Both the position numbers and the translations under genes were made by a program. A DNA stretch of 64,000 bases from contig JAKLKF010000017.1 of assembly GCA_023150805.1 (NCBI GenBank), forward strand, positions 19,333 to 83,332, read 5' to 3'. Positions within the stretch are counted from its first letter, which is position 1. Every line of letters begins with the position of its first letter. The stretch comes from Myxococcota bacterium (GTDB lineage: Bacteria > Myxococcota_A > UBA796 > UBA2385). Shown here piece by piece: positions 8,423 to 15,635 of this stretch. The notes under the pieces were generated by a model that worked only from the letters and a program-made list of their open reading frames with translations, was not told where the DNA came from and did not search any database.

Positions 8423-9289
8423 TCACTCGTACATGCGGCGCATCGGATCGCCCGGCTGGACCTGCGCGTCGAAGTCGCGCCCCAGGTCGGACCGCTGCAC
8501 GCGCCGGTGGTAGCTGGCCGGGCTGTCCCCCGTGAATGCACGGAAGGCGTGGATGAAGTGCGACTGGTCGCAGTAGCCGGCCTCGTGCGCGATCCGCCCC
8601 CAGTCCGGCTGCTGGCCGTGCTGGTCGAGCGCCTCGAAGGCGCGCTGGAAGCGCACGACCTGGGAGAACAGGCGCGGCTCGACGCCGACGGCCTGCCGGA
8701 AGCGCCTCAGGAATTGCCGACGGCCGAGCGCGCAGTCGGCCGCCAGCTCCTCGACGGACACGCGGCCGCGAGACTCCAGGATGCGCTCCACCGCCTCGAC
8801 CACCGGCTGGTCGAGCGCCGGCTGGCGCAGGTTCGCCCAGAGGAAGCGCTCTACCGCTGCGACCCGCGCCGCCAGGTCGGGCGCCTGCCGCACCTCGGAC
8901 TCCAGGACCCGACTGGCGACAAAGAGCGAGTCCAGCGCCAGGTTGCAGTCCACCAGCGGAGGGGAAGGAGCCTGCAGGTAGGGCCGCAGGCCCCACGGGT
9001 GGAAGCCCACCATCAGCACACCCAGGCGGCCACGCGCCCGGTAGGACACGGTGCGGGTCTGGAAGCCTGTGAGGGCGAAAGGAGGGCTCTCGCGCGCCGG
9101 ACCGTCGAGCGTGCGCTCATCCGCTGCGTCTCCCCAGGAGACCACGAGCTGGACGTGGGGAACGGGGAGCACCGAGAGCCAGGCGGACTCGGCCAGGCAA
9201 GGAGGGGGAGGAGCCTCCAGCGCGTAGTAGTAGGCCACCGAGCGGGCCAGGTGGGCGGAGGGGCGGAGGAACTCGGCGTGGACGGTCAT
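8423..9289 (-). CDS. AraC-family transcriptional regulator
   Basis: C-terminal double HTH: VSVEELAADCALGRRQFLRRFRQAVGVEPRLFSQVVRFQRAFEAL...WGRIAHEAGYCDQSHFIHAFRAFTGDSPASYHRR. Confidence 0.93.
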   Translation of the reverse strand: MTVHAEFLRPSAHLARSVAYYYALEAPPPPCLAESAWLSVLPVPHVQLVVSWGDAADERTLDGPARESPPFALTGFQTRTVSYRARGRLGVLMVGFHPWGLRPYLQAPSPPLVDCNLALDSLFVASRVLESEVRQAPDLAARVAAVERFLWANLRQPALDQPVVEAVERILESRGRVSVEELAADCALGRRQFLRRFRQAVGVEPRLFSQVVRFQRAFEALDQHGQQPDWGRIAHEAGYCDQSHFIHAFRAFTGDSPASYHRRVQRSDLGRDFDAQVQPGDPMRRMYE

Positions 9290-9450
9290 GGCGCACCCGG
9301 CGGCCGCCAGCTTCCGGCTGGCCCGGCACCGGTCTAATCCCGAGCTTCGGCGCGCATTGGAGGAATGGGACACGGATGCGTCTCGACTCCACAAGAAGGG
9401 TGGTGGTGCGAGCGGTGAGCTTCCGCGAACAACCCCACCCGGAGCCCTCC

Positions 9451-10149
9451 ATGAACGACGCGCGCTTCACCTCTCTCGCCGCGGCCGCCGCCCTGCTCGC
9501 CATGCCGCTGGCCTGGGCCAGCTTCCTGCTCGGCCCGGCCGCCTTCGGCTGGGACTTCGACCTGCTCTTCGACCCCGCGCGAAGCGTCGCCCACCCAGGC
9601 GTCGACAGCGCCCTGGTCCGCTGGGGCTGGGTGCTGGACGTGCTGGGCTACTACTTCCTGCACCTGCCGGCCGTGCTGGTGGTCGCCGCGCGGACCCGGG
9701 CGGTTGCCCCCCTCGCCACCGCCCTGTCCGAGCGCGCCGCACTCGCCTACATGGCGGTCGGCAGCACGGGCGCCGCCATCCTTGCGGGCACCACCACCCA
9801 CTTCGGTCGCTTCGCGGCGGCCACACCCGAGGTCGCGGACATCATCCGCGAGCTGCACGTCACCACCTTCGCGATGGTGGTGGACGGGATCTGGAACATC
9901 CTCACCATGGGCCTGCTGGCCACCTGGCTGCTGGTGGGCGGACACCTGCTCGCCGCGACCTCGCCCTGGCTCGGGAGAGCCATGACGGGCATCGGCCTGC
10001 TGGCCACGCTGGACGTCGTCGGCTGGGTGACGGGCGTGGAGGGTGTCGCCATGGCCGGCCTCTACGGCTACCTGGCGCTCTTCCCGATCTGGGGCGCCGC
10101 CCTTGGAGCGAGCCTGCTGCGAGGGGATGCTCCGGCAGCGACAGCCTGA
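9451..10149 (+). CDS. Multi-pass integral membrane protein
   Basis: Repeated hydrophobic helices; divergent from the AraC regulator. Confidence 0.75.
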   Translation: MNDARFTSLAAAAALLAMPLAWASFLLGPAAFGWDFDLLFDPARSVAHPGVDSALVRWGWVLDVLGYYFLHLPAVLVVAARTRAVAPLATALSERAALAYMAVGSTGAAILAGTTTHFGRFAAATPEVADIIRELHVTTFAMVVDGIWNILTMGLLATWLLVGGHLLAATSPWLGRAMTGIGLLATLDVVGWVTGVEGVAMAGLYGYLALFPIWGAALGASLLRGDAPAATA

Positions 10150-10245
10150 GGCGCGCGGTGCATCGGCGCGCACGGTCGTTGCACGGCCATGCCCTTGGCC
10201 CGCTCGCGTGGGGGGGCTAACGGCCCTCTCTTCCGGAGCGCTGCC

Positions 10246-11322
10246 ATGTGGATCCTCCTCGCCCTCCTCGCCTGCGGTGACGGTGCCTCCGATGGGGCCC
10301 CCGAGGGCGCCCCCGCCGGCGCTCCCTCGGGGGCCGCCACCGCCGCGCCGCCCACCGCGGTCCGCACGCTGACCCTGGCGCCCCAGGAGTGGGTGCAGAC
10401 GGTCACCGCGACCGGCGTGGTCGAGGTGCGGGACTCGGTCGAGCTGCGACCCGAAACCAGCGGCGTCATCACGGCGATCCACTTCCAGGACGGGCAGGCG
10501 GTCGAGCAGGGCGCCCTGCTGGTCCAGCTCCGCGACACAGACGCCCGCGCCCAGGTGGCCGAGGCGGAGGCGCGCCTGGCCCTGGCCGAGGTGACGCTGG
10601 GCCGCCTGCAGGCCCTGGTCGCAACCGACAACGCGCCCCGGGCCGAGGTGGACCAGGCCCAGGCCGAGCGGGACCTGGCGGCCGCCCAGGTGGCCCGCGC
10701 CAAGGAGGCGGTGCGGCGCACCCGGGTGGTGGCGCCTTTCGCCGGGGTGCTGGGCCGGCGGGACTTCGCGGTCGGCGCGACGGTGGATCCCGCGCGGACG
10801 CTGACCCGGCTGGACCGCCTGGACCTGCTGGTGGTCGACGTCTCCGTCTCCGAGGACGACGCCGTGGCCGTGGTGATGGATCAGCCGGCGACCGTGTCGG
10901 TGGAGGCGGTGCAGGTCGAGCAGACCGGGCGCGTCCGCTACGTGTCACCACGGGCCCGCGCCGGGTCGCGCACGGTGGACGTCCGGGTCGAGGTCGACGA
11001 CCTGGGGGGGCGCCTGCGGCCGGGGCTGTCGGCGGCGGTGCGGATCGAGGTGGGCCGGCTGCCTGACGCCGTAGTGGTGCCGGCCTACGCGGTGATCCAG
11101 GGCGCGACCGGCGCCAGCGCCTGGGTGGTCGGCGAGGGGGACAAGGCCGAGCCACGCAGCCTGGTGCTCGGCGGGCGCGCGCCCGACGCGGTCCAGGTGG
11201 AGTCGGGCCTGGCGGTCGGCGACCGGCTGATCCTGGAGGGCTTCACGCGCCTGCGGCCCGGCGCGCCGGTGACCGAGGCGGCGCCCTCCCCCGGCGCAGG
11301 TGCCACGCCAGGGGCGCGCTGA
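10246..11322 (+). CDS. RND efflux periplasmic adaptor (HlyD/AcrA family) lipoprotein
   Basis: Lipobox WILLALLAC; barrel-sandwich ETSGVITAIHFQDGQAVEQGALLVQLRD, coiled coil, RRTRVVAPFAGVLGRRDFAVGATV. Confidence 0.93.
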   Translation: MWILLALLACGDGASDGAPEGAPAGAPSGAATAAPPTAVRTLTLAPQEWVQTVTATGVVEVRDSVELRPETSGVITAIHFQDGQAVEQGALLVQLRDTDARAQVAEAEARLALAEVTLGRLQALVATDNAPRAEVDQAQAERDLAAAQVARAKEAVRRTRVVAPFAGVLGRRDFAVGATVDPARTLTRLDRLDLLVVDVSVSEDDAVAVVMDQPATVSVEAVQVEQTGRVRYVSPRARAGSRTVDVRVEVDDLGGRLRPGLSAAVRIEVGRLPDAVVVPAYAVIQGATGASAWVVGEGDKAEPRSLVLGGRAPDAVQVESGLAVGDRLILEGFTRLRPGAPVTEAAPSPGAGATPGAR

Positions 11323-14300
11323 TGAACCCGAGGACCTTCGTCGAGCACCCGGTCCTGGCCCTGGTGCTCTCGATCGTGATCCTGATCTTCGGGCTGGTGG
11401 CCTACCCGCGCCTGCCGGTGCGCGAGACGCCCGACGTGCAGCAGCCGATCGTCACCGTGCAGACGACCTGGCCCGGCGCCGACCCGGCCCTGGTAGAGGG
11501 GCAGGTCACCGAGACGCTGGAGCGCGAGATCAACGGCATCGAGGGCGTGCGCACGCTGACCTCGCAGAGCGTCGACCAGCAGAGCAGCATCACCGTCGAG
11601 TTCGACCTGGGCCGCGACCTCGAGGCCGCCGCCAACGACGTGCGCTCGCGGGTCTCGCGGGCGCGGCGCCGCCTGCCGCCCGACGTGCTCGACCCGGTGG
11701 TCGAGAAGTCCGAGGCCTCGGCCCAGCCGGTCATCTTCCTGCGCGTGGTCGGCGAGGGGCGCGACCTGCTCTCGCTCACCGAGATCGCCGACACCGTGGT
11801 GCGCGAGCGGCTGCAGAACGCCGTCGGCGTCGGCGCCGTCGAGATCATGGGCGAGCAGCGCTTCGCGATGCGGGTCGAGCTGGACCCGGCGGCGCTCTCG
11901 GCCCGGGGGCTGTCGCCCCTGGACGTCGAGGCGGCGCTGCAGGCGCAGAACGTGCAGCTCCCGGCCGGGCGGGTCGAGGGCCAGGCGATGGACATCAACC
12001 TGCGCCTGGACGCGGCGATGCGCACGCCCGAGGAGTTCGAGGCGCTGGTGCTCTCCGACGCCGGCGGCGGCGTGGTGCGCCTGGGCGACGTGGCCGAGGT
12101 GCGCCTGGGATCGGCCAACGAGCGGCAGGCGGCGCGGGCCGACGGCGTGCCCTCGCTGAGCCTGTCGATCGCGCCGCTGGCCAGCGCCAACATCATCGAG
12201 CTGTCCGACGACGTGCGGGCGCGCCTGCCCGAGGTCCAGGCGGCGCTGCCCACGGGCGTCTCCGTCGAGGTGCAGTACGACCGCTCGCAGCCGGTGCGCC
12301 GCTCGATCCACGACGTGCAGCTCACGCTGATCGTCGCCTTCACCCTGGTCGCGGTCGTCATCTTCGCCTTCCTGCGCGACCTGCGCAGCACGGCGGTGCC
12401 CCTGCTGGCGATCCCCGTGTCCATCGTCGGCACCTTCTTCGCCATCTGGCTCTTCGGCTTCTCGGTCAACGTCTTCACGCTCTTCGGGCTGGTCCTGGCC
12501 ATCGGCCTGGTGGTCGACGACGCCATCGTCGTGCTGGAGAACGTGCACCGCCGGATCCAGCTCGGGGAGTCGCCGCACGACGCGGCCATCGCCGGCACCG
12601 ACCAGGTCCGCTTCGCCGTCATCGCGACCACGATCTCGCTCATCGTGGTCTTCCTGCCGGTGATCTTCACCGGCGGCACGACCGGCCGCCTCTTCGTCGA
12701 GTTCGGCACCACCGTCGCCGTCGCCGTCGCCCTGTCCGCCTTGGTGGCGCTCACGCTGACGCCGATGCTCTGCGCCTTCATCCTCAAGCCCGAGCACTCG
12801 GAGGGCGCGCAGGCCTCGGTGGGCGAGCGGCTCTTCGAGCGGGTCGAGGCCGCCTTCGGCCGCACGCTGGACCTGGCGATGCGGCGCAAGGTGCTGGCCC
12901 TGCCGGTCCTGGCGGTCGCGGCGGCCCTGGGCTTCGCGGCCTTCCGTGCCCTCCCCCAGGAGTTCTTCCCCATCGAGGACCGCAACGTCTTCTTCGTCCG
13001 CACGGTGGCGCCCGAGGGCACGGCCTTCCCCTACCTGGACACCCGCATGAAGGCGCTCGAGCCCATGCTGATGGAGACGGTACCCGAGCGCATGGTCATG
13101 CTGACCCGCGTCGCCAGCGCGCCGGGCTCGTCGGTCTCGGCCGGCAACATCGGCACCTTCGTGTTCCCGCTGAAGCCGGCCGACGAGCGGGAGCGCAGCC
13201 AGCAGGAGATCGTCGACGCCGTCCGCAAGGCCTTGTCGGCCCAGACGGGCTTCCTGGCCATCCCCATCCAGTTCCCGACCGTGGGCCGCAGCTTCAACCC
13301 GCCGCTGCAGATCGTGCTGATGCACCCGGACTTCGAGGCCCTCAAGCAGGCCCTGCCCGGGGTGGTGGGCGCCCTGCGGCAGGTGCCCGGCCTGGTCGCG
13401 GTCAACGAGGACCTGAAGATCAACCGGCCCGAGCTGCAGGTGGCCGTCGACCGCGAGCGCGCCGCCGCCGCCGGGATCACCACCCGCCAGCTCGCACGCG
13501 GGCTGCAGATCGCCTCCAGCGGCCTGGACGTCTCGGACTTCCCGCGCGGCTCCCGCCAGTACGACGTGCTGCTCGGCCTGCCCCCCAGCGGCCGCGACAC
13601 GCCCGACGAGGTGGCCGACCTGCGCCTGCGCGCGGCGGACGGCGGCATGGTGCCGCTGGACCAGCTCGTGCGCTTCGAGGAGCGCTCGACGACCAACGCC
13701 CGCTACCGCTACATGCGCAGCCCCTCGGCCACGGTGTCGGCCTCGCTCGACGGCATCACGCTCGGGCAGGGGCTGGAGCGGGCGCTGCCGGTGGTGCGGG
13801 CCCAGCTCGGCGAGGGCTTCTCGGTCGCGCTGGCCGGCGAGTCCCGCGACTTCGCCGACGCCCAGAGCTCGGGGCTGGGCATCTTCGGGCTGGCCCTGGT
13901 GCTGGTCTTCCTGACCCTGGCGGCCCAGTTCGACAGCTTTCGCGACCCGCTGGCCGTGCTGCTGACCGTGCCCTTCGCCCTGGTGGGCGCGGTGCTGGGC
14001 CTGTGGGTGCTGGGCATGACCTTCAGCTTCTTCGCCCAGGTGGGGCTCATCCTGCTGATCGGGCTGGTGACCAAGAACGGCATCCTGATCGTCGAGTACG
14101 CCCGCCAGCTCGTGCACCAGGGCAAGGGCCTGTCCGAGGCGGCGGTGGAGGCCACCCGCCTGCGCTTCCGGCCGATCCTGATGACCAGCATCGCCACCGT
14201 CGGCGGCGCCCTGCCCATCGCCATCGGCTGGTCGGGCGGCTCGCGCACGCCGCTGGGCGTGGTGGTCGTCGCCGGCATGCTGCTGTCGACGGCGCTCACG

Positions 14301-15635
14301 CTGTACATCGTCCCGATGGCCTGGATCTGGTTCCACGGGCGGCAGAAGGCGGGTCCGGGCCCCGGCGCGGCGGCGGGCCTGGCCCTGGCCGCGACCCTGG
14401 CCGGCGGCCTGCTGGCGGGGGGGCCGGCGCGGGCCGGGGAGCTGTCGCTGGAGCAGGCCCTGCGCCTCGCCGACCAGCAGATGCCGGCCCTGGTCGCCGC
14501 GCGCGCCGGGGTCGAGGCCGACCGCGCCACCGTGGGCCAGGCCCGCGCCGGGGCCCTGCCCCAGGTCGCCGGCTCGGCCAGCCTGCTGGTGGGGCTGGAC
14601 CCGCGCAGCAGCCTGGGGGGCGACGGGCAGGTGGGCACCGTCGCGACGGCGGGCGCGCGGGTGGACCTGCCGCTGCTCGACCTGGCGACCTGGGGCCAGG
14701 TCGGCGCCGCGCAGGCGGGCCTGGACGCCAGCGAGGCGGCCTACCGGGCCAGCCGGCAGGAGCTCCTGGCCCAGGTGGCCGGGCGGTGGCTGGCCCTGCA
14801 GCGCGCCGAGGCCGTGCTGGCGACCGCCTCGGCGACGGTGGCCCGCAGCCGCCGCTTCCAGGGCCTGGCCGAGGCGCGGCTGGGCGCGGGCCTGGGCCTG
14901 TCCATCGACCGGACCCGGGCCGAGGTGGCCGTCCTGCGCGACGAGCTGGCCGAGCGAGAGGCCCGCACCGCCGTCGTCACCGCCCGCCAGGACCTGGCCG
15001 CCGCCCTGCTCCTGTCGGCCGACCAGGTGACCCTGCCCGCCCCCGCCCCGCTGCTGGCGGTCTCGGACCTGCCCTCGCCGGCGCAGGCCGAGGCCCTCGC
15101 CCAGGCGCTGCAGACGCCGACCGTGGACGCCGCCCAGGCCGCGGTGGAGGCCGCCCGGCGGCAGCGCCAGGCCACCGGCGCCCAGGCCCTGCCCTCGCTG
15201 GATGGCTGGGCGCAGGCGGGGGCCTACAGCTCGGCGAACGGCGACGGGCCCTTCGTGTCGGGCGGCCTGCAGGCCACCGTGCCCCTCTTCCTGGGCGGCC
15301 GGGTGCGCGCCGAGCGCTCGGGCGCCCAGGCCGACGAGACCGCCGCCCAGGCCGGGCTGGACGCCGCCCGCGCCGACGTCGCCGCCACCCTGCGCTCCCT
15401 GCAGGCCGAGCTCTCCGACCGCGCCGCCGCCCTGCCCATCGCCCAGGCCGCCGAGGCCCTGGCGGGAGACGAGGTCCGCCAGGCCGAGGAGCGCTACGCC
15501 GCCGGGGTCGGCTCCTCCTACGAGGTGGCCGACGCCGTCTCCCGCGCCGCCCAGGCCGAGCGCGCCCGCGTGGACACCGTCTGGGCCTACAACCGCGCGG
15601 TGGTGTCCTGGTGGCTGGTCACGGGGGCCTGGTAG
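11322..15635 (+). CDS. RND (HAE1-type) efflux permease fused to TolC-family outer membrane factor
   Basis: AcrB-like N-terminal ~1010 aa with LVVDDAIVVLENVHRR (TM4 DD) and LVTKNGILIVEYA (TM10 K); C-terminal ~400 aa TolC-like ELSLEQALRLADQQMPALVAARAGVEADRATVGQARAGALPQV; 1 nt overlap with adaptor gene. Confidence 0.9.
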   Translation: MNPRTFVEHPVLALVLSIVILIFGLVAYPRLPVRETPDVQQPIVTVQTTWPGADPALVEGQVTETLEREINGIEGVRTLTSQSVDQQSSITVEFDLGRDLEAAANDVRSRVSRARRRLPPDVLDPVVEKSEASAQPVIFLRVVGEGRDLLSLTEIADTVVRERLQNAVGVGAVEIMGEQRFAMRVELDPAALSARGLSPLDVEAALQAQNVQLPAGRVEGQAMDINLRLDAAMRTPEEFEALVLSDAGGGVVRLGDVAEVRLGSANERQAARADGVPSLSLSIAPLASANIIELSDDVRARLPEVQAALPTGVSVEVQYDRSQPVRRSIHDVQLTLIVAFTLVAVVIFAFLRDLRSTAVPLLAIPVSIVGTFFAIWLFGFSVNVFTLFGLVLAIGLVVDDAIVVLENVHRRIQLGESPHDAAIAGTDQVRFAVIATTISLIVVFLPVIFTGGTTGRLFVEFGTTVAVAVALSALVALTLTPMLCAFILKPEHSEGAQASVGERLFERVEAAFGRTLDLAMRRKVLALPVLAVAAALGFAAFRALPQEFFPIEDRNVFFVRTVAPEGTAFPYLDTRMKALEPMLMETVPERMVMLTRVASAPGSSVSAGNIGTFVFPLKPADERERSQQEIVDAVRKALSAQTGFLAIPIQFPTVGRSFNPPLQIVLMHPDFEALKQALPGVVGALRQVPGLVAVNEDLKINRPELQVAVDRERAAAAGITTRQLARGLQIASSGLDVSDFPRGSRQYDVLLGLPPSGRDTPDEVADLRLRAADGGMVPLDQLVRFEERSTTNARYRYMRSPSATVSASLDGITLGQGLERALPVVRAQLGEGFSVALAGESRDFADAQSSGLGIFGLALVLVFLTLAAQFDSFRDPLAVLLTVPFALVGAVLGLWVLGMTFSFFAQVGLILLIGLVTKNGILIVEYARQLVHQGKGLSEAAVEATRLRFRPILMTSIATVGGALPIAIGWSGGSRTPLGVVVVAGMLLSTALTLYIVPMAWIWFHGRQKAGPGPGAAAGLALAATLAGGLLAGGPARAGELSLEQALRLADQQMPALVAARAGVEADRATVGQARAGALPQVAGSASLLVGLDPRSSLGGDGQVGTVATAGARVDLPLLDLATWGQVGAAQAGLDASEAAYRASRQELLAQVAGRWLALQRAEAVLATASATVARSRRFQGLAEARLGAGLGLSIDRTRAEVAVLRDELAEREARTAVVTARQDLAAALLLSADQVTLPAPAPLLAVSDLPSPAQAEALAQALQTPTVDAAQAAVEAARRQRQATGAQALPSLDGWAQAGAYSSANGDGPFVSGGLQATVPLFLGGRVRAERSGAQADETAAQAGLDAARADVAATLRSLQAELSDRAAALPIAQAAEALAGDEVRQAEERYAAGVGSSYEVADAVSRAAQAERARVDTVWAYNRAVVSWWLVTGAW

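Follow-up and report, generated by a model that had tools for sequence, protein, structure and literature searches.

A fused RND permease–outer membrane factor gene with an internal signal-peptide-like segment as a predicted signal-peptidase-processed polyprotein in Myxococcota

The window analysed here, a 64,000-nucleotide stretch of a Myxococcota genome, carries a single open reading frame on the forward strand (11322–15635) that starts with ATG and runs for 1437 codons without an internal stop, joining an RND permease to a TolC-like outer membrane factor (OMF). Directly 5´ of this ORF lies the gene of a periplasmic adaptor (membrane fusion protein), the partner of the fused pump (10189–11322, forward strand; HlyD_D23, and RND_mfp with 224 bits). 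A start at 10246 is likelier than one at 10189, as it yields a lipoprotein-like N-terminus (MWILLALLAC/G). The adaptor TGA overlaps the permease ATG by one base (TGATG), and the complete pump is thus laid out as two genes, the adaptor followed by the fused permease–OMF. A scan for promoters and terminators found none. An AraC-type protein with a DUF6597 domain (8423–9394, reverse strand) is encoded divergently from a small membrane protein (9376–10149) and the pump operon, and is a possible regulator of that operon.

The permease part comprises residues 1–1006 (11322–14339) and is covered over its full length by the Pfam domain ACR_tran (residues 4–1005; E 5.5e-279, 928.6 bits). The proton relay is intact, with the tandem Asp of TM4 (VVDDAIVV), the Lys of TM10 (VTKNGILI) and the Thr of TM11 (RPILMTS) all present. 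Among the NCBIfam models, the best match is the multidrug RND model NF033617 (RND_permease_2), whose 976.4 bits lie below the curated cut-off of 1250 and so do not place the protein in that subfamily, whereas the CusA/CzcA model of the heavy-metal (HME) class, TIGR00914, reaches 402.5 bits against a cut-off of 701, so that the permease is not HME by cut-off. The motifs and scores agree with the HAE1-type assignment made in the preliminary description, and drug efflux is the predicted function of this proton-driven type of permease.

The permease is followed by a signal-peptide-like segment (14340–14435), which consists of a basic n-region (RQK), a hydrophobic core, AAAGLALAATLAGGLLAGG, and an ARA site (14427–14435). 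The junction reads RQKAGPGPGAAAGLALAATLAGGLLAGGPARA/GELSLEQAL from position 14340, just as had been described beforehand, and the predicted signal peptidase I site, ARA/G (14427–14438), would be cut between 14435 and 14436. The core has a mean hydropathy of 1.92, and the three elements together qualify the segment as a predicted signal peptide, even though this core is the weakest of all the fused ORFs considered below and the n-region is rich in Gly and Pro.

Cleavage at this site would leave a mature OMF of 399 amino acids (14436–15632). OEP matches two stretches of the OMF part with 148 bits, above the Pfam cut-off, the best stretch lying at residues 1043–1228 (E 1.4e-41), and phmmer returns TolC-type matches (E 1.6e-6). 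In the AlphaFold prediction (pTM 0.39), the first repeat is H-H-E-E-H-H and only the first of the two strand pairs comes out; over that first half, the elements follow one another as in TolC. The first helix begins about five residues past the predicted cut, without a linker. The Foldseek matches down to E 0.001 are OMFs, though with TM-scores of about 0.3. The OMF has no Cys at +1 and is therefore not a lipoprotein.

As the window belongs to a fragmented assembly (contig C88 of 398, 7.77 Mb in total), a sequencing or assembly error could in principle hide a stop between two ordinary genes. The relatives refute this explanation and leave it a negligible likelihood. The congener UBA2385 (G001) is fused at the same place, with one frame through the junction, in-frame indels and no stop (73% identity over query residues 399–1435), and so are seven more orthologues (G034, G049, G025, G035, G016, G047 and, at class level, G067), which excludes an indel. 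Moreover, the same architecture is found in a genome assembled in one contig (L100 in G130) and in fused paralogues of the window genome itself. A separate OMF gene next to the permease is absent from all close relatives, whose permease genes are either fused or have no OMF nearby; the arrangement that would have spoken against the fusion, two separate genes with a stop at the junction, was not seen among them. The two paralogues of the window genome, L004 (G000:C365:66802-74091) and L005 (G000:C10:7775-15250), are of different RND subtypes, and each has an adaptor-like gene directly upstream.

It is also most improbable that the ORF is a decayed or chimeric gene without function. The OMF part does evolve faster than the permease (61% versus 82% identity to the congener) and six relatives have no OMF part, but the frame is kept through in-frame indels, the proton-relay motifs of the permease are intact and the adaptor gene stands upstream in the orthologues.

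A scan of the genome collection with the fused protein alone found only the congener, and in plasmid searches with the window protein and with L005, none of the records reached 80% coverage of the query. A profile built over the last permease helix, the junction and the OMF was searched against 284 genomes of the phylum, and the regions fetched contain 59 distinct fused RND–OMF ORFs, which are spread over 51 genomes in 13 families and include three in the window genome. These span at least four permease subtypes: DD/K (the window protein), VDN/NN (L005), VDA (L004) and a further K-type.

The signal features of the junctions were assessed by a simple, home-made rule, which requires an uncharged 11-residue core with a mean hydropathy of at least 1.5 and a signal peptidase I motif no more than 12 residues after it. 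All 59 fused junctions pass with a relaxed motif and 52 of them have a strict AxA, counts that come from related and hence non-independent sequences; signal-peptide features like those of the window protein are present at every fused junction examined. In composition-matched shuffles, a mean of 17.3 junctions passed the relaxed rule (maximum 27) and 6.8 the strict one (maximum 14), to be set against 58/59 and 49/59 for the real junctions in that run, which used slightly shorter segments. Only 1 of 38 unfused permease tails passes. This tail, in L114 (G283:C359), is an extra hydrophobic, signal-like extension followed by one stop and an OMF in the same frame; either the fusion is broken or the sequence contains an error. 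Across the fused ORFs the junction varies freely in length and sequence, while the basic n-region, the core and the small-x-Ala ending persist. No Cys was seen at +1 in the fused junctions examined, so their signals are not of the lipoprotein type, and the +1 residue is mixed within the phylum of the window. The group of family f16 (L118–L121 and L099) carries a long, often acidic stretch of up to about 70 amino acids that separates the signal site from the OMF and is rich in Glu and Gln in L118.

Fusions of the CusA–TolC type, which the preliminary description had taken as reported for heavy-metal pumps, do exist as annotated proteins in Bacteroidota, while the literature searched contained no report of them. 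They occur in plasmid records of Haliscomenobacter, Flavobacterium and Adhaeribacter (1451–1464 aa, ACR_tran plus OEP) and are annotated merely as CusA/CzcA heavy-metal RND transporters (e.g., WP_013768944.1 and WP_264563277.1); in 63 plasmid records, a single place covers 80% or more of the fused query. The first Bacteroidota plasmid regions examined (Emticicia and Bernardetia) were unfused. Like the window protein, the Bacteroidota fusions are single ORFs of about 1450 amino acids with ACR_tran, OEP, an internal signal-like segment and an adjacent adaptor gene. They differ in having an HME (metal) permease, a Gln at +1 and an adaptor gene that follows, whereas the window has an HAE1 permease and an adaptor that precedes.

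This Gln bears on cleavage. The majority of Bacteroidota proteins released by signal peptidase I start with Gln (71% as a mean over species; Bochtler et al., PMC5837995), which becomes pyroglutamate (PMC5837995). In all 19 Bacteroidota fusions examined (15 after thinning at 70% identity), an Ala or Ser stands a short way past the hydrophobic core with Gln directly after it, while the neighbouring positions vary. Shuffling of the 21 residues after the core gave a mean of 9.5 out of 19 and never 19 in 20,000 shuffles, a figure that is not a strict probability, since these fusions are related to one another. A blind rule taking the first motif places Gln at +1 in 15 of the 19. These fusions belong to a different phylum and a different RND subfamily from the window protein. 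Without cleavage, it is hard to explain why an internal site should bear the residue that typifies cleaved products in their phylum.

Taken at about 85% probability, the reading that best fits these sequence data is that the two-gene operon encodes an HAE1-type pump whose permease and OMF are made as a polyprotein, inserted co-translationally and cut by signal peptidase I. The permease would insert into the inner membrane during translation and leave its C-terminus in the cytoplasm. The hydrophobic segment that follows would then serve as an internal signal and 13th membrane span with N-in/C-out orientation, carrying the OMF across the inner membrane. Signal peptidase I would cut after ARA, at residue 1038, and the released OMF would assemble in the outer membrane, so that the adaptor and the fused permease–OMF would form a complete tripartite efflux pump. 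We infer the insertion route, the cleavage, the equal synthesis of both parts and the assembly with the co-encoded adaptor. The polyprotein interpretation, put forward from the window alone, gains support from the conserved fusion and from the signal features of the 59 junctions.

The same junction could instead stay uncut, the segment forming a permanent 13th membrane span that tethers the OMF to the permease. Cleavage is a prediction, and in some relatives a long linker separates the signal from the OMF (e.g., L118). In the window protein, however, no linker precedes the OMF fold, which starts right at the site. A signal-peptidase-type ending is kept in 59/59 fused ORFs, and the Gln that all 19 Bacteroidota fusions have at +1 marks cleaved products; permanent tethering thus appears very unlikely. 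In TolC structures, the N-terminus lies well above the inner membrane. With this geometry and no linker before the first OMF helix, an uncut chain could hardly reach the outer membrane. It is likewise unlikely that the OMF is produced separately, from ribosomes that initiate within the ORF at the Met of IVPMAWIW in the last permease helix, with the long product minor or absent. An in-frame ATG does occur in the interval from the last permease helix to the signal core in 35 of the 59 fused ORFs, the window's included, but most of these codons simply encode Met residues within the last helix, at positions that are not conserved. The other 24 have no ATG in this interval, and the orthologue L011 keeps the signal with no ATG, GTG or TTG there. 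Shine–Dalgarno sequences do not discriminate, since real gene starts here also do without them.

In the textbook view, the parts of a tripartite pump are made separately and meet later. In AcrAB-TolC and MexAB-OprM, the components are encoded by separate genes, and the OMF, which bears a signal at its own N-terminus, often serves more than one pump. The window system consists of the same three component families, its permease aligning over the full length to AcrB/MexB and its OMF to TolC. A cleaved polyprotein, if confirmed, would couple the channel to its pump at synthesis and set the ratio of the two. Signal peptidase I would here also act within a polytopic membrane protein, which is rare in bacteria. 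The cytochrome b/c1 precursor FbcH of Bradyrhizobium is a comparable chain, a membrane protein with an internal signal peptide that is cut by signal peptidase into two subunits; its proteins are unrelated to those of the window and belong to a respiratory complex. A literature search for RND–TolC fusions and for FbcH returned nothing usable, and the accessible part of a 2021 review of tripartite pumps makes no mention of an RND–OMF fusion. The domain architecture itself is already in databases, unremarked; current annotation hides it by naming these proteins only "RND transporter". Within the literature searched, nothing appears to precede the HAE1 form of this phylum, the census of fused ORFs or the test based on Gln. 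Furthermore, the Gln signature makes cleavage in Bacteroidota testable in existing proteomes.

As to their evolution, signal-peptidase-processed RND–OMF polyproteins are likely to be widespread and repeatedly evolved, comprising drug-type pumps in this deltaproteobacterial phylum and metal pumps in Bacteroidota, and would supply each pump with its own channel from one translation event. Quick trees were used: the permease tree requires at least seven changes between the fused and unfused states, and the nine OMF parts orthologous to that of the window form one clade (SH-aLRT 99). Six unfused orthologues of family f2 (L015–L020) stop 10–20 residues past the last helix, and no OMF gene was found in their fetched flanks. 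L010 and L125 are fused and branch next to or among them, for which reason loss of the OMF part in f2 would be the simplest account; these permeases presumably borrow another OMF.

Finally, in a different lineage (L053–L055, about 35% identical), the adaptor, permease and OMF genes lie in one frame with single TAG stops between them. The permease is followed by TAG, ATG and directly by the OMF signal, one stop codon short of a fusion. Such in-frame cases came from a search that reads through stops and thus favours them, which makes their frequency uninformative, and the idea that selection keeps separate genes in frame was dropped. As the layout of L053–L055 illustrates, a fusion whose internal signal already works could arise through the loss of one stop.
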